Positions 7,430 to 50,946 of a DNA stretch of 64,000 nucleotides are shown in pieces. The notes beneath the pieces were generated by a model. The model was not told the DNA's origin and did not search any database. It saw only the letters and a program-made list of their open reading frames with translations. How positions within the stretch are numbered: position 1 is the first letter of the stretch; every line of letters begins with the position of its first letter. The DNA comes from a virus, in IMG/VR virus record IMGVR_UViG_3300009034_000001, positions 124,001 through 188,000 of that record; one strand, 5' to 3'. Position numbers and translations under genes: made by a program.

Positions 7430-7651
7430 TCACTTATGTGTGTCTTCATCTTCATTATCAGTCGATTCTTCAATCAAATCTGATACCTCGTCACGTAAGC
7501 TAGTGATTGGCAGTTCAAGCTCATAACCTAGTAGCCACTCCAATGCAGCTTTCACGCCCTTGTTGTACGGACTGGCCACTTTGTCAGACTCGTCACATTC
7601 AAGCATCTTCAAAACAACATCATCTCGACTTCTCCTAAATTGTTCACACAT
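7430..7651 (-). CDS. YNKGV-AALEW family protein, tandem copy A
   Basis: 73 residues. It closely matches the next gene (7689-7916): both start MCE-F-RSRD and share YNKGV-AALEW-LGYE followed by an acidic tail. The GGAGG ribosome site and the bases around it are also duplicated, including a remnant of the 3' end of the gene at 7909. A third, diverged member is at 33658-33813. Function unknown. Confidence 0.65.
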   Translation of the reverse strand: MCEQFRRSRDDVVLKMLECDESDKVASPYNKGVKAALEWLLGYELELPITSLRDEVSDLIEESTDNEDEDTHK

Positions 7652-7688
7652 TTACCTTTCCCTCCATTGCAGAAATTATTGTGTATAC

Positions 7689-7916
7689 TTACCTTAACCT
7701 CACGTCTTCATTTTCACTATCAGATGATTCTTCATCAAAATCCAAGTTTACCAAGTCGCGTGGGTCAATAATAGATAGTTCATCCTCATAACCTAAAATC
7801 CACTCCAAAGCCGCGTTCACTCCCTTGTTGTAAGGAACAAAAGATTTGGCAGACTCTTCACATTCAAACATCTTTGCGACAACTTCATCTCGACTTCTCT
7901 TAAAATGTTCACACAT
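7689..7916 (-). CDS. YNKGV-AALEW family protein, tandem copy B
   Basis: 75 residues, paralogue of the following gene. The ATG overlaps the last codons of the upstream ligase-like gene by 8 bases, and its GGAGG lies within that gene's coding end, so translation is probably coupled. It ends in a run of Glu, Asp and Ser. Function unknown. Confidence 0.65.
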   Translation of the reverse strand: MCEHFKRSRDEVVAKMFECEESAKSFVPYNKGVNAALEWILGYEDELSIIDPRDLVNLDFDEESSDSENEDVRLR

Positions 7917-9036
7917 TTACCTTTCCCTCCATTGCAGAAATTATTGAATATACATACCGCATTTTATCCTTTGGACAAAACTGCGACATATACCTCATTA
8001 CCTGTCGTTTGTCTTCCATTAACTTAACGCCAAACTCCTTATACTTTTGTAAAACTTCATTCCTTAACTTTACTTCAAATTTAACGTCGTTGATACACTT
8101 CCATACAAGATCCTGGCGAGCTTCAACTTCGCGGTCTGTAATTTCTTCCAATAACAGCTCCTTAACAAATGTATAGGTAAGTTCTTCAACAGATACGTTT
8201 TCAAGCGCGTTATAACATGTTGTTAAAATGTCTTGCTTATTTAAACCTGGCTTAGCATGAACTGCCATCACACTTTCGGGTTTACATTTCCATTGAACCC
8301 AGCCCAACTCAGGATCTTTGACATACACCACAGAACCTTCGGAGCCTTCAATGCCAAAATCTGTTGTTTTATTAGTATTTTCAAGTTCACCACGTATCCT
8401 CTTGTAAAAGTCTTCGAAGTTGTTCTCGGGTTTAATTTGATAATAAACTGTAGCAGTCGGAACTTCCGTTGTGAATGATTCTGGCAGCAGTATTTGTTCG
8501 GACTTCCTGTCAATTCCAAATATCAATGCAGTATCAAGCGGCGTGGGATAAATTATTAAATGTTTATTTCTTATCCCATAAAGTTCACAAACAGCGGTAC
8601 GTTCCATACTGGGTAAACGCTTAATAGCGGGATAACGTTCTAACATTTCACGCCACATCTTTACGAAGTCGTAAGATTCAAAACTGTGCATGACTGGCGT
8701 CATCCTAGTCTTATAAGTTACATATTCTTTCCTTCTGAAACGGTAAACGTAACAAATAATAGCTGTGCCGTCATACTTTTGATAAGCAGGCGAAACTTCA
8801 AGAGTATGATGGAAGAAAAATTTGCCAAACCTATTATGAGGATAGTACATCTTTGGCGCACTCATTATAAACTGAGCTTCGCATTGCATTCCGTTTATAT
8901 GTGTTAACCAAAGTGATCCATAGTATTTGCCAGACTCCGTGCACATATATCCGGAAAGGAGATGATCCGGATTAAAAACATCAACTACATCTTTAAATTC
9001 ACGACGTGGCTTCGTAAGAAATTCAGTAAATTCCAA
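7909..9036 (-). CDS. RNA/DNA ligase-like nucleotidyltransferase (candidate)
   Basis: About 375 residues. Several segments match covalent nucleotidyltransferase motifs in order: KYYGSL (motif I, KxxGS, as in T4 Rnl1-like KEDGSL), ELYGIRN (motif III-like), EGSVVY (motif IV, EGxV) and WKCKP (motif V, KxK). This would be an enzyme that adenylates itself and joins RNA or nicked duplexes. The start is a TTG at 9036 because GGAGG lies 7 nt before it; a longer reading would begin inside the transketolase gene. The assignment rests on motif order only. Confidence 0.5.
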   Translation of the reverse strand: MEFTEFLTKPRREFKDVVDVFNPDHLLSGYMCTESGKYYGSLWLTHINGMQCEAQFIMSAPKMYYPHNRFGKFFFHHTLEVSPAYQKYDGTAIICYVYRFRRKEYVTYKTRMTPVMHSFESYDFVKMWREMLERYPAIKRLPSMERTAVCELYGIRNKHLIIYPTPLDTALIFGIDRKSEQILLPESFTTEVPTATVYYQIKPENNFEDFYKRIRGELENTNKTTDFGIEGSEGSVVYVKDPELGWVQWKCKPESVMAVHAKPGLNKQDILTTCYNALENVSVEELTYTFVKELLLEEITDREVEARQDLVWKCINDVKFEVKLRNEVLQKYKEFGVKLMEDKRQVMRYMSQFCPKDKMRYVYSIISAMEGKVNV

Positions 9037-9040
9037 TTCG

Positions 9041-9982
9041 CTACCTCCTTGGTTTGTGCCGCATAAATGTTTCAATAGTAGCCACAATACTACGCGGTGT
9101 TAAATTATATTTCTTTAATAACGATTCTGGAGAACCCGAGCGAGTAAATATATCAGGAATACCAATACGTAACATTGAAACAAGTTTGTGTTCCATTAAA
9201 CATTCTGACACAGCATCACCTAAACCGCCAATTACTGAATGATCCTCGACGGTAACTACCGAGCCAGTACTTCCAGCACAATGCAACAATAATTCAGTAT
9301 CCAATGGTTTAACTGTTGACATAGCAACAATACTACTGGAAACACCAGACATTTGAAGATAGTTTGCAACTTGTAAACATGTATGAGTTAAATAACCTGT
9401 TGTCACAATTGTGACATCTTTACCGTCACGCAAACAGCTACCCTTCCCAATTTCAAAATGGTTACGCTTTTCAACAATCTCTGGCATATCAATTCTACAA
9501 CCTCTAATATACACCGGGCCTGGATGTGCTACAACAGTTTCAACAACCTGTTCCATTTCGGTGCTATCTATTGGAGCAATCACGGTCATATTTGGTATTA
9601 CTCGCATTAATGCAAGATCTTCCAACGCGTGGTGTGATACACCGTCGGGTCCAACGGTTATTCCGCCATGGCTACCAAAGATTTTTACATTCAAGTTGTC
9701 CAACGCAATTGTTTGTCTTATTTGTTCCCATCCCCTACAAACAAAGATTGCAAAGGTAGCCAGGAAAACAATCTTACCAGTTAGTGCAAGTCCCGCAGCT
9801 ACGGACATCATATTTTGTTCTTGTACCCCAACGTTAAAAAACCGATCCGGGAAAGTCTTCGCAAAGTAATGGGTCTTTGTTGATGATGAAAGGTCAGCAT
9901 CGAGCACGACAACGTCTTTATTTAATGTACCTACTTCTTGTAGTTTCTTTCCGAAAGCATCTCGCGGATTACGCTTTTCCAT
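9041..9982 (-). CDS. Transketolase, C-terminal half
   Basis: 313 residues with the pyrimidine-binding and C-terminal domains of split transketolases: DADLSSST, then NVGVQEQNMMSVAAGLA (the catalytic Glu that activates thiamine diphosphate), SHGGITVGPDGVSHHALEDLA, and TVEDHSVIGGLGDAV. With the next gene it forms a complete enzyme that moves two-carbon ketol units in the pentose phosphate pathway. It overlaps the N-terminal half by 14 bases. The ATG follows GGAGG. A phage copy would feed ribose-5-phosphate or erythrose-4-phosphate supply. Confidence 0.88.
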   Translation of the reverse strand: MEKRNPRDAFGKKLQEVGTLNKDVVVLDADLSSSTKTHYFAKTFPDRFFNVGVQEQNMMSVAAGLALTGKIVFLATFAIFVCRGWEQIRQTIALDNLNVKIFGSHGGITVGPDGVSHHALEDLALMRVIPNMTVIAPIDSTEMEQVVETVVAHPGPVYIRGCRIDMPEIVEKRNHFEIGKGSCLRDGKDVTIVTTGYLTHTCLQVANYLQMSGVSSSIVAMSTVKPLDTELLLHCAGSTGSVVTVEDHSVIGGLGDAVSECLMEHKLVSMLRIGIPDIFTRSGSPESLLKKYNLTPRSIVATIETFMRHKPRR

Positions 9983-10823
9983 TTAACTCCTCCAACGCTT
10001 TAATATACTCTGCATACGTAGGTGCAACCCCATGATACTTTACTCGATTTTCCATAAAAGAAACGCCTTTACCTTTGACGGTCTTTGCAATAACGCACAA
10101 TGGTCTGTGATGAGTTCGTGGGTATTGAAGTACGCGTTTTAACTGAACAAAGTCGTGTCCATCAACTGAAAACGTTTCCCAACCAAAGGATTGAAACTTG
10201 AGATAAAGTGGATAGATATTCATAACATCAGTAATACGCCCGTCTATCTGGAGGTCGTTATTATCCACAATAACAACAAGATTATCAAGTTCATAGTGAC
10301 TCGCACACATAGCGGCCTCCCAAATTTGTCCAGACTGTAACTCGCCATCACCAGTTACTACAAACACTCTGTTCGGATCCTGATTGAGTTTAAGTCCTAG
10401 TGCAATTCCAACGCCAACTGATAGCCCTTGTCCAAGTGAGCCAGTAGAAACTTCAATACCTGGAGTAAACTTCCTCCTTGGATGCCCTTGAAGCTGGCCA
10501 AAAATTGTCCTTAACTCTAACAAATCCTTAATTGGAAAATAACCTAATCTAGCAAGGATAGAATAAAGCGTTGGACAACCATGACCCTTCGATAATATAA
10601 AATAATCGTGCGGAACATTTACATCAGTTGCAGACAACGGAGGTAAACTCATTACATGACAGAAGAGTGTAGCTAGTATTTCTACACAGGATAATGCGCC
10701 GCCCGTGTGTCCAGAGCCTGCAACACACAACATAGTAAGTACATCTTCCCTTATCCTCTTGACCAGTTTCGGAAATGGCAAAGTACGGAATGTTTCACTA
10801 CTACTAATTATATCTATTGCCAT
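9969..10823 (-). CDS. Transketolase, N-terminal half
   Basis: 284 residues with the thiamine-diphosphate pyrophosphate domain: SGHTGGALSCVEI, LSKGHGCPTLYS, TGSLGQGLSVGVGIALG and the metal-binding GDGELQSGQIWEAAM ... NNDLQIDG. This two-gene organisation is common in archaea and some bacteria. Start ATG with AAGGAG. Not DXS, because the halves are separate and the GDGELQ-GQ-WEA pattern is that of transketolase. Confidence 0.9.
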   Translation of the reverse strand: MAIDIISSSETFRTLPFPKLVKRIREDVLTMLCVAGSGHTGGALSCVEILATLFCHVMSLPPLSATDVNVPHDYFILSKGHGCPTLYSILARLGYFPIKDLLELRTIFGQLQGHPRRKFTPGIEVSTGSLGQGLSVGVGIALGLKLNQDPNRVFVVTGDGELQSGQIWEAAMCASHYELDNLVVIVDNNDLQIDGRITDVMNIYPLYLKFQSFGWETFSVDGHDFVQLKRVLQYPRTHHRPLCVIAKTVKGKGVSFMENRVKYHGVAPTYAEYIKALEELNGKA

Positions 10824-19526: not shown

Positions 19527-20576
19527 TCACCTCATTTGAACAAATTTGTGTATCTGAGTACCAAGGATGACGTCCTTACCTTTCCAAAAGTTAGACATCA
19601 AAATATCCGCAACGTTACTCAATCGTTTAAGGTATTCATTAACATCAAACGGGACCGGAGACACTGGAGACAAAACAAAGGCTGCGGTTGACATTTTTTC
19701 TACTACATACTTTGCAAACTCTAGATCTTCAATGCCGTCCAGAAGTAACTTGAACTGAACGAAAGGCCGAGGATGTTGTGGATCAAAGAAATGCTGTCTT
19801 TGGTCTAGCCAGAAACGTTTGTAAATCTTCATGGGAACGTCCAAATTGTTTTTAACCTTTGAACTCGGTCCTTTTATATCTACGGAAATCAAGCCATTCA
19901 CCAAGTCAAACACCTCAGGGTTCCAAATTGTGCCATTGGTTTGTAGCATTATTTGGCAACCAAATCGACGTAACATATTTATCAAATACTTAGCGGCTGA
20001 AGGTTGATGTAGCACCTCACCGCCAGTAAGGAAAATCACACTATTTCTTAACGGACTATATTCATCATGTGCGTTAACACAATGAACTTCATCAAGTAAC
20101 CGACGAATCGACCAATTCTGACCTTTTCCCCAACTATACTTTGTGTCGCAATATGGACACTGGAGGTTACACCCCGAAAATCTAATAAATGTAGCAGGGG
20201 TTCCCACCTCATGTCCTTCGCCACAAACGGACCGGAACACATCTTCAGCAAGCCTTACTGGAACCGTTCTTTCAAACCAAGCTTGTGGCAAATCATTCAA
20301 ATCTTCTTCATACAAACCTAAATACTCTATCTTATGAGAACGGTAACTGTTTACCGCGTCAACAAAATATTTAAAGTATCCAGGAATGTCAAATCCGCCA
20401 AAATATTCAATAAAAAGTTGTGGGTGTTTAATATAACAATCCGGACTGATTATACCATCAGGTTGTGGATAGCAATTCTCAAAATCCAAACCCAAATCGT
20501 GGAAAAAGTAAATAATCTTGTCAATTTGATTAGCAAACATATCTTGGAATTTTATTTCGATCTTTTTTCCAGTCAT
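19527..20576 (-). CDS. queE: 7-carboxy-7-deazaguanine synthase (QueE), N-terminally extended
   Basis: 349 residues. Canonical QueE starts near residue 108: SVCGEGHEVGTPATFIRFSG, then the radical SAM cluster CNLQCPYC followed by DTKYSW. The enzyme turns 6-carboxytetrahydropterin into CDG with SAM and Mg2+. The first ~105 residues are an unrecognised extra domain not needed in ordinary QueE. With QueD (42270) and QueC (22142) it supplies preQ0 for DpdA-type DNA modification. Confidence 0.88.
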   Translation of the reverse strand: MTGKKIEIKFQDMFANQIDKIIYFFHDLGLDFENCYPQPDGIISPDCYIKHPQLFIEYFGGFDIPGYFKYFVDAVNSYRSHKIEYLGLYEEDLNDLPQAWFERTVPVRLAEDVFRSVCGEGHEVGTPATFIRFSGCNLQCPYCDTKYSWGKGQNWSIRRLLDEVHCVNAHDEYSPLRNSVIFLTGGEVLHQPSAAKYLINMLRRFGCQIMLQTNGTIWNPEVFDLVNGLISVDIKGPSSKVKNNLDVPMKIYKRFWLDQRQHFFDPQHPRPFVQFKLLLDGIEDLEFAKYVVEKMSTAAFVLSPVSPVPFDVNEYLKRLSNVADILMSNFWKGKDVILGTQIHKFVQMR

Positions 20577-21588: not shown

Positions 21589-22170
21589 TTAAAGTAAATC
21601 AAATTTGTTAATATACCTATACCATTTATTCCGAGGTGTTATTGGATACAATAACGACGTTCGTCTATCCCGTTTGCCAACTGGAAGCAAATACGTAGGC
21701 ACAATAACATTCAGAGTCAAACTTTTATCTTGTAAAATAAAAATGGTAATGTTACTGTCATACCGCGCGACATACGGACAAAATTTGTAACCTCTAGGAT
21801 CTAATTGTACCTTTGAAGCCAAAAGTCTTACAATTTTATCATTAACACGAATGTAGCTACCACGCGAGACTCTCGTAACCACAAATCCTTTCCTTTTTAG
21901 AAGTTGTGTAAATTCCTCCTTTGCACGTGAAAACCAACACTTGCCCCACGAGAAAGTCTTACACCTATTTACTACTCTTTCGCGTTTCTGACTTAAACCT
22001 AACTTATCAATAACTTGTCGAGCGTACTCCCTTGTAAAACCAAAGTATCTACCAATATCTGCCTTAGAACACAGTGGATCGTGATACATCCGCATAAACT
22101 GTTGCATAGCGCCGGGACCATAAAGTTCCTCAAATTTATCCTTAAAAGTTTGGCTCCTTCGCCTTCGCAT
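21589..22170 (-). CDS. HTH-containing hypothetical protein
   Basis: 193 residues. An N-terminal helix-turn-helix (SKADIGRYFGFTREYARQVI near 36-55) resembles the DNA-binding helix of sigma region 4 or phage HTH proteins. The C-terminal ~110 residues are strand-rich and may hold a nuclease-like fold but no catalytic motif is certain. It overlaps QueC by 29 bases. A regulator or HTH-linked endonuclease are both possible. Confidence 0.5.
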   Translation of the reverse strand: MRRRRSQTFKDKFEELYGPGAMQQFMRMYHDPLCSKADIGRYFGFTREYARQVIDKLGLSQKRERVVNRCKTFSWGKCWFSRAKEEFTQLLKRKGFVVTRVSRGSYIRVNDKIVRLLASKVQLDPRGYKFCPYVARYDSNITIFILQDKSLTLNVIVPTYLLPVGKRDRRTSLLYPITPRNKWYRYINKFDLL

Positions 22171-23227
22171 TGTACGCCTCCTTCAGTTCGTTCAAACTAA
22201 TTACCCCCTTTTTATACGCTTCCCACTTTAGCCAGAAGAAGTAGGTGTAACACACATGATCTCGCAACTCCTCCGATCCAAATTCAAACATGTCATCCTT
22301 AAGGAAATGTGCTGAATCAAACTTTCTCAAACCAGCTCGCAGTCCATCAATACAAAAGTTCATAAATTCCTTAAACCTTTTCTCATCAAAAGAGTTCAAG
22401 CCTTCGTATTTACTATCCCTATCAAACAAGCTAACCAACTGTGCAAATGGAATACGAAGAAGGTTAGGTCTATTCTTGAAAACCCAGATAAGTCCTGGCA
22501 TGTACCGCATTTGAACACAATATTCAGGGAAAAGTGGACTTTCCCGTGGATCTTTATCATAAGTCGTTTTATCTTCCCCAAGCGCAGACAACATTGCAAC
22601 GTTGCGCTCAACACATAAATAACATTGGCCACAATGTAACTTATATGGAATACTTCTACCCTTTATTGTACCTCTATCATAGTAAAAACAGCTGTTCGTT
22701 TCATATATCAAATCGCCAACTTGGTCATGACACAGTTTAACACGATCACACTTTATGGTTGCATTTCCAATGTCATCCAACGTCCAAAGTTTGCACTGAG
22801 GATCTTTCCCATGAATGTAGTTCTGTAACTCTTCAGTATTGCTGTCTTTTGTTGACACCGACCACCAATTTACCCAAGTTTCTGGCCCACCACCTTTATA
22901 CTCGCCCATTCCAATGTCAGCACCCGGGAACCGTTCCAATGTCCAATCAATCATATACTGATTCCTTTTAGGTAGCATATCTCGCGTCATCATGTATTTC
23001 CGATCTGAAAAAATAAGCGGTTTCGGAATATCAAAACCTTCCTTAGTGCACTTATTCCATAAGTTCATAACGGTTCGAACTTCGCGTACACAATAGCCTT
23101 CACCTTTCCACCTAACGTATATTGGCTGTGGTTTAATTAATCCAAGAGTCTGATTGCAACGAGCAAGCCAAGTCAACACGGCCAGTGAATCCAATCCGCC
23201 TGAAAATAGCACAATAGCTTTTTTCAA
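22142..23227 (-). CDS. queC: 7-cyano-7-deazaguanine synthase (QueC)
   Basis: 361 residues, longer than typical QueC (about 230). The PP-loop is LFSGGLDSLAVL at residues 7-18 and the zinc-binding CGQCYLC is near 206-212. QueC converts CDG with ammonia and ATP to preQ0. The extra C-terminal part has helices of unknown role; phage QueC proteins fused or elongated are known. The gene overlaps the next gene by 4 bases. Confidence 0.85.
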   Translation of the reverse strand: MKKAIVLFSGGLDSLAVLTWLARCNQTLGLIKPQPIYVRWKGEGYCVREVRTVMNLWNKCTKEGFDIPKPLIFSDRKYMMTRDMLPKRNQYMIDWTLERFPGADIGMGEYKGGGPETWVNWWSVSTKDSNTEELQNYIHGKDPQCKLWTLDDIGNATIKCDRVKLCHDQVGDLIYETNSCFYYDRGTIKGRSIPYKLHCGQCYLCVERNVAMLSALGEDKTTYDKDPRESPLFPEYCVQMRYMPGLIWVFKNRPNLLRIPFAQLVSLFDRDSKYEGLNSFDEKRFKEFMNFCIDGLRAGLRKFDSAHFLKDDMFEFGSEELRDHVCYTYFFWLKWEAYKKGVISLNELKEAYNAKAKEPNF

Positions 23228-27078: not shown

Positions 27079-28254
27079 CTATATAACCCTTTTAAGCCTT
27101 ATTGTGTTAAAGTTATACTTCCTTCCCTTCTTGGCACAATTAATCCACATTCCAAGTGACCTTTGAACAATATCCGCGGTAAAGTCAAACTTGCCATCAA
27201 ACATAGACGAGCCAACACCATAAGCATAAACCGGCAAATCTAACCTTTCAAATTTGGAAATCTTCTCCGGCGTAAATCCGCCACTAACTACAATCTTAAT
27301 ATCACTAAAGAATTGACGTCCTACGCTCCCTACCTTAAAGTCCAAAGACCTGTTTCGTAATGCTAAAAAAACATTTTTTACCAATTGTGGGTTGACTCCA
27401 GTTATTTCATGTAAATTATGCGGCACAAATGTACCTTCATCATCTATAGAATCCAACACCGACTTATCCACCATCGTTCCAGATGTATCTAGTCTTACAC
27501 CAAACAGTTTGTATCGTGGATCTCTTGTTTCCTGATATTTTAACCACATTGCATTTGCAACATCCAAAGATGTCTTTACGGAATCGTTGTCAAAATCAAC
27601 AAGCACAACTCTCTTTACCATTGGATCAATAAATTGACAAAACTTAAGTGTAGCCGTTACTGTATCTCCGCCATAGGCAGCAATTAATCCATGAGGCATC
27701 GTTCCAATGCCTTTTTCTCCCCACCACCAACCTTGGGCGTCAGTCGACACGCCTCCGCATAATGGCAGACCAGCAGCTTCTCTGCCAACAGAATAAGAGT
27801 ACCCATCTTTAGGCTGTACAGTATAACTATCAAATCTGGCAGGAAAGAAAAGAATTGGTTTACCCTTCGCAGCTTTCACGCACCTATAAACATTAGTTGC
27901 AACCTTAGTACCTCTCGCTAAAGTGCCCAAGTATACAGTCTCAAGATGTGCAAACAGTGAATAATCGCCCTCAATTAACATTACCGTTTCCCAAGCGTTT
28001 ATAATATCGCCATCACGTAAAGACCTAATCGTAAGCTTTTCAAAACTTGTGTTTAAAATTTGTTTCATTATATGAATTGACTCATCAATGCCACACAAGC
28101 ATGCGTTATTATTCTTCTGGAAAATCTGAATCCTGACAATGGGACGATGATGATCCCACTCCAAAATTCGTTTGGTATTGTTGAAGTATTCGTCGGTGTA
28201 GCTTCCAAACTTTATCACAGGTTCAACTTTTACACGATTACAATTTAATTTCAT
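27079..28254 (-). CDS. Nicotinate phosphoribosyltransferase
   Basis: About 391 residues. It shows the NAPRTase features: EGDYSLFAHLETVYLGTLARGT, the ARRFD-like FFPARFD segment, the GTMPH motif (IGTMPHGLIAAYGGD) carrying the phosphorylated His, and the C-terminal SGGFTPEKI and YGVGSSMF. It makes nicotinate mononucleotide from nicotinate and PRPP, the entry to NAD salvage. A start at 28254 with AAGGA upstream is chosen over a longer frame. A macro domain is found at 32654. Confidence 0.87.
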   Translation of the reverse strand: MKLNCNRVKVEPVIKFGSYTDEYFNNTKRILEWDHHRPIVRIQIFQKNNNACLCGIDESIHIMKQILNTSFEKLTIRSLRDGDIINAWETVMLIEGDYSLFAHLETVYLGTLARGTKVATNVYRCVKAAKGKPILFFPARFDSYTVQPKDGYSYSVGREAAGLPLCGGVSTDAQGWWWGEKGIGTMPHGLIAAYGGDTVTATLKFCQFIDPMVKRVVLVDFDNDSVKTSLDVANAMWLKYQETRDPRYKLFGVRLDTSGTMVDKSVLDSIDDEGTFVPHNLHEITGVNPQLVKNVFLALRNRSLDFKVGSVGRQFFSDIKIVVSGGFTPEKISKFERLDLPVYAYGVGSSMFDGKFDFTADIVQRSLGMWINCAKKGRKYNFNTIRLKRVI

Positions 28255-28480
28255 ATTCCTTACCCTTTTTATCTGGTTTGTAGGTTGTCTCACATTGAGG
28301 ACTAGACAAACTCATATCGTTGTTTATACAAAGCTCCTTCATAGCCTGACAAATTATCCAACGAGGATACGTCAAATCCGTAGCAAACATCATAAACATT
28401 TGTCTACGTTCACTATCAGACTTTGCAACTGAGAAACAATCCTTAACATACTTAAGCTGTACTTTCTCCTTGTCCGTCAT
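28238..28480 (-). CDS. Small hypothetical protein
   Basis: 80 residues, helical, with cysteines at positions spaced irregularly. It overlaps the NAPRTase start by 17 bases. Not recognised. Confidence 0.55.
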   Translation of the reverse strand: MTDKEKVQLKYVKDCFSVAKSDSERRQMFMMFATDLTYPRWIICQAMKELCINNDMSLSSPQCETTYKPDKKGKEYEIKL

Positions 28481-42269: not shown

Positions 42270-42680
42270 TTAACCAAAAGTAGCCCAATTGGTTGGAGTT
42301 TCGTACACTGTAACCTCCTTAACAATAAGAGACTGTGTATTTAACTGACTTGATAGAATGTTATAGATATATCTCGACATAACTTCTGCTGTTGGCTGAT
42401 CCTCTGGTAATAAAACAACTTCATTGCCAAGATTATATAAATGTCGAAACAGCTCATCATCGGAAGACGATAAAATTGTAGCATGATCAAACTTTTCAAG
42501 GATCTTCTTTAATTCCATTTTCAAAATACCAAAATCAATAACCATTCCCTGATTCAAAGTACCTTTACAAACCGTTGCAATAACCTTATAAGTGTGGCCA
42601 TGAAGATTCTTGCATTTACCGTCGTATTCCGGTAATCGATGTGCAGCGTCAAAAGTCATCTCAATACTAACGCAATACAT
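42270..42680 (-). CDS. queD: 6-carboxytetrahydropterin synthase (QueD)
   Basis: 136 residues. FDAAHRLPEYDGKCKNLHGHTYKV holds the zinc histidines and the catalytic Cys (split here as FDAAHRL and CKNLHGHTYK). The C-terminal Glu is in VYETPTN. QueD turns dihydroneopterin triphosphate into CPH4, the QueE substrate. GTP cyclohydrolase (FolE) is not seen in the window, so host FolE or another phage gene is expected. Confidence 0.92.
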   Translation of the reverse strand: MYCVSIEMTFDAAHRLPEYDGKCKNLHGHTYKVIATVCKGTLNQGMVIDFGILKMELKKILEKFDHATILSSSDDELFRHLYNLGNEVVLLPEDQPTAEVMSRYIYNILSSQLNTQSLIVKEVTVYETPTNWATFG

Positions 42681-49235: not shown

Positions 49236-49380
49236 CCTCCGCACAATTAAGGCCCCCGTCTTGGTGTAGTATATAGTCTAGCGGGTTCTGGCGGACTTAC
49301 ACTGTTGGACTAGCTTTCGTTTCCTACTAGCTTATACGCCCTGTGGGGAGCTCTTATGTCTCCTGTGCAGTCCGCGACAA
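49236..49380 (-). ncRNA. Structured intergenic RNA, candidate 1
   Basis: No ORF fits this stretch after the DUF932 gene stop. On the minus strand GCGGACT (49369-49375 region) pairs with AGTCCGC (49291-49297) in a perfect 7-bp stem; GCAC then pairs with GTGT past one bulged A, giving about 11 pairs around a 70-nt interior with a GGAG/CTCC hairpin. Downstream of the stem a GGGGGCC lies before the next ribosome site. It is not a tRNA. Strand is inferred from gene direction. Confidence 0.4.
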
Positions 49381-50212: not shown

Positions 50213-50404
50213 TTAATTACGTGCCCGGCGTAAAAGTCGTGGAAACCGCAGAAGCTCATGAGCATTGTGATTACAAATTGTGTTTAAAAACAAATCAATA
50301 CCTTTCGATGTTGAACTAACAGATACCCTTATGGAGAGTCCACACATACATAGTAAAACTTTTGTACCTCCTAGTAATCTCCTTCTTGTTTCTCTAGTTA
50401 ATTT
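50213..50404 (-). CDS. Doubtful small ORF
   Basis: A frame of about 64 residues from an ATG near 50404 that overlaps the end of the CPxC gene. The sequence is basic with no motif and no good ribosome site. It may be untranslated. Confidence 0.25.
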   Translation of the reverse strand, partial: KLTRETRRRLLGGTKVLLCMCGLSIRVSVSSTSKGIDLFLNTICNHNAHELLRFPRLLRRARN

Positions 50405-50603
50405 CATCTGCCACAACCTCACGAATTTTATACGTAACAGCTTGGAATTGCAACTTAGATTTCTTCTCAATCGAGCAAGACACCCTCGGGGGGCCGGAAC
50501 AAAACTTGTGGGCCTTGACTTTGTAAACACGATTTTGTTTACATCTCAAAATCACACGACTGTTACTACGTTTTATTTTGAAATGACAAATTGGACAAAT
50601 CAT
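50394..50603 (-). CDS. Zinc-binding small protein
   Basis: 69 residues; CPICHFKI at the start and two more Cys (RCKQN, FCSGPP) make a ribbon-like pattern. GTGAGG precedes the ATG. It follows the structured RNA at 50625-50749. Confidence 0.5.
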   Translation of the reverse strand: MICPICHFKIKRSNSRVILRCKQNRVYKVKAHKFCSGPPRVSCSIEKKSKLQFQAVTYKIREVVADEIN

Positions 50604-50624: not shown

Positions 50625-50749
50625 GCAGCCCTTACCCAAACCCAGATTATGCACAACGGAAAGCGCACTGGACGGTACCTGACCAACCATACAAGAGCGG
50701 GCACTACTTTCTTATATGGCCCGTTGTTCTACCGGACGGTAAGGACTGC
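50625..50749 (-). ncRNA. Structured intergenic RNA, candidate 2
   Basis: A 125-nt stretch without a minus-strand gene. Closing stem: 50625-50636 with 50738-50749, 12 pairs. Inside: 50673-50677 with 50730-50734 (5 pairs), 50687-50696 with 50710-50719 (10 pairs), and 50642-50645/50668-50671 plus 50650-50654/50663-50667 (9 pairs). Three of these stems contain a U-G or G-U pair that on the plus strand would be an A-C mismatch, so the minus strand is favoured. A loop GCCC can also meet an upstream GGGC, giving a possible pseudoknot. Family unknown. Confidence 0.65.
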
Positions 50750-50754
50750 TTGAC

Positions 50755-50946
50755 TTATATCAACCAAATTGTCTTGTCCAAATAATCTAAGCCAAACTCT
50801 CCAAGCGTCGAATGAGCAACTTCAACGGATTCGCAACCAAGTAGCCTATCAACTAAATGGACAACTTCAGTATGTTGAAGACGACCAATTACTTCAATCC
50901 AATTTAAGTTGTTCATTGTAAGTACGCCAGCTTTTTGTGCCTCCAT
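50755..50946 (-). CDS. Small hypothetical protein
   Basis: 63 residues, helical, GAGGTT before the ATG. Ends just 5' of the structured RNA. Unknown. Confidence 0.5.
   Translation of the reverse strand: MEAQKAGVLTMNNLNWIEVIGRLQHTEVVHLVDRLLGCESVEVAHSTLGEFGLDYLDKTIWLI

Follow-up and report, generated by a model that had tools for sequence, protein, structure and literature searches.

A predicted structured RNA in a GC-rich intergenic gap of a probable jumbo phage

Many genes of large phages are uncharacterised, and few structured RNAs have been described in these viruses. GC-rich gaps of AT-rich genomes are an established place to look for structured RNA genes (PMC8632094). In the packaging RNA (pRNA) of phi29, the loops corresponding to those considered below pair between molecules (PMC12670572), and GOLLD and ROOL are structured non-coding RNAs that form homo-oligomers (PMC12286853). 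The element compared with them here is a predicted structured RNA of 125 nt, which fills the intergenic gap between two ORFs of 63 and 69 aa.

The window, that is, the whole 64,000-nt stretch that was analysed, comprises bases 124001–188000 of a 241,415-base virus record (IMG/VR record IMGVR_UViG_3300009034_000001), and the genome has a GC content of 39%. Of the 150 non-overlapping ORFs in the whole record that are 150 aa or longer, 148 lie on the minus strand, and we infer from this gene orientation that the minus strand is the transcribed one. A large terminase of the ordinary type (phrog_38, E 7e-51) and a phage-type DNA polymerase (phrog_17) are encoded in the record, which indicates that the virus is probably a tailed phage of jumbo size. 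Inspection by eye also gave candidate genes of the 7-deazaguanine pathway, QueE-, QueC-, TGT-, and QueD-like (window positions 19527–20576, 22142–23227, 27079–28293, and 42270–42680), as well as two neighbouring genes that may resemble the C- and N-terminal halves of transketolase (9041–10823); a direct repeat with two adjoining copies of ~255 nt each, 79% identical, lies at 7442–7958.

On the minus strand, the element (window positions 50625–50749; 125 nt, 54% GC) folds with a minimum free energy (MFE) of −53.8 kcal/mol. The architecture predicted from the single sequence is a three-way junction closed by a 12-bp stem, P1, and bearing two composite arms, of which P2 is the long and P3 the short one, with pair probabilities above 0.9 for most pairs. 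By the predicted fold, the 5′ strand of P1, GCAGUCCUUACC (50738–50749, minus strand), pairs with its 3′ strand, GGUAAGGGCUGC (50625–50636, minus strand), with probabilities of 0.98–1.0; one of the 12 pairs is U-G, and the coordinates of the element coincide with both ends of this helix. The P2 arm (50673–50734, minus strand), whose pair probabilities are mostly above 0.9, is built from P2a (5 bp), an internal loop, and the P2b hairpin of 12 bp (2 + 12 bp as listed) with a 13-nt loop, and the P3 arm (50641–50672, minus strand) is built from P3a (5 bp), a 4-nt bulge, P3b (5 bp), and an 8-nt loop. The original prediction had described a 12-bp closing stem and three further stems; the closing stem stands, and the further stems are P2a, P2b, P3a, and P3b, arranged in the two composite arms.

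That the 125-nt stretch folds on the minus strand is borne out by comparison with shuffles, whose mean MFE is −37.2 kcal/mol (z = −4.78 for the element): none of 200, and none of a larger set of 2,000, was as stable. The plus strand reaches −38.4 kcal/mol (z = −2.71). Since the element had been picked for its fold, its genome-wide rank is a fairer measure than the shuffle count, and it ranks second among ~19,300 composition-corrected 125-nt windows from both strands of the whole 241-kb record; its z value is the fourth-lowest among the 73 intergenic gaps. These figures bear on the explanation that a stable fold without function arose by chance, for which speak the choice offered by 73 gaps and many windows and the fact that no homologue was found (see below). 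The shuffle count and the window rank argue against it, as do the arms, which taken singly also beat their shuffles in stability (z = −2.7 to −3.2; −2.97 for P2 and −2.72 for P3), the boundaries of the element, which match those of the gap, and the high GC content, and we consider chance very improbable. As a computed prediction resting on one sequence, the fold is solid.

It had also been proposed that strand-specific G-U pairs, one in each of three stems, indicate selection for RNA structure. The minimum-energy fold contains six of them (one in P1, three in P2b, one in P3a, and one in P3b), i.e., 14% of the 42 pairs. Dinucleotide-matched shuffles yield as many or more, with 7.6 ± 2.1 G-U pairs and a mean of 7.6 in 38 pairs (20%), so that the count gives no sign of selection and the argument fails. 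The two strands differ by 15.4 kcal/mol, of which ~8.2 kcal/mol is due to composition alone according to the shuffles; the excess is modest, being attained by 56 of 2,000 shuffles.

The view that the shape fits no known family agrees with the search of the Rfam 15 covariance models, which gave no family match to the element and only chance matches in the region (E 1.2 and 4.2). Identity with a tRNA or tmRNA was rejected, with no match from ARAGORN or Rfam, and so was a retron non-coding RNA, with no RVT_1 match in the record. Homologues in related phages, by which the original prediction was to be checked, were found neither in GenBank phages and plasmids nor in IMG/VR or GTDB contigs. In GenBank phages and plasmids, blastn returned nothing or 22–27-nt matches at E 5, and the matches to DNA patterns of 15–17 nt in IMG/VR and GTDB neither fold like the element nor fit its covariance model; with that model, built from the single sequence, no second copy was found in the same record. 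IMG/VR was queried with the 63-aa and DUF932 proteins that flank the element, with a Lon-like protease, and with the terminase. One contig, IMGVR_UViG_3300009034_000002, is 100% identical and ends at window position 50352, 272 nt short of the element; besides it, no close relative was found in IMG/VR, where the next terminases are at most 32% identical, and the terminase query gave no match in GTDB contigs. A match to the 63-aa protein (at L002) was spurious, its frame lying inside a tail-region gene. Judging by these searches, the phage belongs to an isolated lineage. RNA genes can be flagged by their folding energy, their GC content, and the layout of the gap even where a phage is too isolated for covariation analysis.

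Upstream of the element, the 63-aa ORF (50755–50946, minus strand; coding score 0.37 bits per codon) ends with its stop codon 5 nt before the element starts. Downstream, the 3′ end of the element lies 21 nt before the ATG of the 69-aa ORF (50394–50603, minus strand), with a GAGG ribosome-binding site in between, and the DUF932 gene is located beyond this ORF. The 69-aa product has an N-terminal CPIC, possibly of a zinc ribbon, and a sub-threshold Pfam zinc-finger match (E 0.014); the coding score of this ORF is weak (0.04), so its reality is uncertain. No frame across the element scores as coding, and its GC content of 0.54 compares with a mean of 0.38 for intergenic gaps and 0.54–0.60 for three tRNA genes. 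Neither an intrinsic terminator nor a sigma-70-like promoter was found at the borders of the element; the phage's own promoters may differ from the sigma-70 type, so that the absence of such a site carries little weight. Taken together, its folding energy and GC content, its position, and the absence of both a coding frame and an Rfam match make a structured minus-strand RNA outside known families a well-supported interpretation, and a compact folded RNA is, on the modelled structure, very likely made from the 125-nt gap.

As to what this RNA does, we see about an even chance that it serves this large phage as a stand-alone structured non-coding RNA, excised from a polycistronic transcript and acting in trans. 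Its position, similar to that of the phage's tRNA genes, speaks for an RNA gene that is cut out of a longer transcript: the tRNA-Pro gene starts 1 nt after the upstream stop codon, and the distance from the end of each of the three tRNA genes to the following ATG is 24–26 nt and includes a ribosome-binding site. The lack of a terminator and a sigma-70-like promoter at the borders is what is expected for a processed RNA. The element would be transcribed together with the minus-strand gene cluster, and host or phage RNases would trim the polycistronic transcript back to the 12-bp helix that joins the ends, a release that would resemble that of the phage's tRNAs; once freed, it would act in trans as a folded RNA, its likeliest target being a phage or host protein. 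Modelled from one sequence only, the element is probably an RNA gene of unknown class and, if expressed, would be one of several candidates in this genome.

The layout of the gap would also suit a 5′ leader for the 69-aa ORF. The main rival, possible but rather doubtful in our judgement, is such a leader acting in cis, in the manner of a riboswitch or by binding a protein, on the translation of this ORF and the DUF932 gene. In the modelled switch, P1 would open and CCUUAC of its 5′ strand would pair with the ribosome-binding site GUGAGG, shutting translation; with the 3′ strand of P1 blocked, the predicted refold indeed puts the 5′ strand across the ribosome-binding site, and the distance of 21 nt to the ATG suits a leader. 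However, the opening of P1 costs ~10 kcal/mol (from −56.8 to −46.5), which is much for a switch, and no promoter-like site lies near the element, which sits within a gene cluster. The spacing to the ATG is similar for the tRNA genes of the phage, and the weak coding score of the 69-aa ORF also speaks against a leader.

An intercistronic mRNA element, i.e., a set of hairpins that shields or marks a site of processing between segments of the transcript and gives no product RNA, would likewise fill a gap in a same-strand cluster, and strong hairpins are present in several other gaps of this phage. A simple hairpin is sufficient for such a role, for which a helix-closed three-way junction would be over-elaborate, so we regard this explanation as improbable and retain the stand-alone RNA as the preferred reading.

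Other minus-strand gaps of the record are also structured. The strongest is a long near-perfect hairpin (z = −4.35) at L017:15637–15765 (record positions 223637–223765). GC-rich hairpin gaps at L018:2915–3002, L018:6948–7091, and L018:7563–7687 (record positions 230915, 234948, and 235563) are each preceded by a similar TGAC-containing stretch and possibly form one regulatory hairpin family. In the GC-rich structured gap at L017:14430–14658 (record positions 222430–222658), the structure is followed by a T-arm-like GAGGG-TTTGATT-CCCTC, and neither ARAGORN with introns allowed nor Rfam gave a tRNA there. After the DUF932 gene, a GC-rich minus-strand stretch at window positions 49250–49375 carries CCACAGGGCG and CCAGAACCCGC, which bear a faint likeness to RNase P RNA core motifs; this stretch has no Rfam match, and its folding energy is not unusual.

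For the stand-alone RNA, a loop contact may be considered, in which the P3 loop would possibly pair with the P2 internal loop of the same copy or of another. ACAACGG, which covers the P2 internal loop on its 5′ side together with the first P2b pairs (50720–50726, minus strand), is a perfect 7-nt complement of CCGUUGU, which covers the P3 loop and the start of the 3′ strand of P3b (50653–50659, minus strand). By chance, such a complement is expected with a probability of 0.0006 between these two loops and of 0.004 between any two loops, the regions having been chosen post hoc; the contact overlaps existing stem pairs, and its energy cost about equals the gain. In favour of an RNA working like phi29 pRNA, copies of which would link into a ring on the portal through P2-loop/P3-loop pairing, are the similar size (125 vs. 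118 nt) and the similar order of parts, with a closing helix, P2 with a loop on the 5′ side, and a short P3 hairpin. We find such an analogue barely credible: RF00044 matched nothing in this record even at E values of up to 10, and the model did find phi29 pRNA, used as the control, at 145 bits; the junction linkers are 3/0/4 nt in the element vs. 1/3/0 in the pRNA structure given by Rfam; the large terminase of the phage is of the ordinary type; and the energy gained by the loop contact is about offset by its cost. The mismatch with the RF00044 model, the differing linkers, and the terminase led us to reject membership in the pRNA family itself. It would be a long shot that the element represents a novel class of small phage RNAs that multimerise through the P2 and P3 loops and serve as a structural component, such as one of a packaging motor, in a large phage with an ordinary terminase.

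Among known systems, the element resembles the phage's own tRNA genes in GC content, in its position after a stop codon (as for tRNA-Pro), and in the gap of 21–26 nt to the next ATG, but it is without a T-arm and is not a tRNA by ARAGORN or Rfam. With riboswitch-type 5′ leaders it shares a multi-stem junction closed by P1 shortly before a ribosome-binding site, and it differs in its very stable 12-bp P1, its intercistronic location, and the lack of a known conserved core and an Rfam match. GOLLD and ROOL are several times larger than the 125-nt element, which differs from them in having no Rfam match; they are alike as structured non-coding RNAs, and loop–loop pairing would allow homo-oligomers for the element too. 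From the phi29 packaging RNA (RF00044), the element is set apart by the lack of a sequence or model match, by other linkers, and by the ordinary terminase and large genome of the phage, whereas the two are, on the predicted fold, alike in their size, in having a three-way junction that is closed by a helix and in which P2 is long and P3 a short hairpin, and in the complementarity of the P2 and P3 loops.
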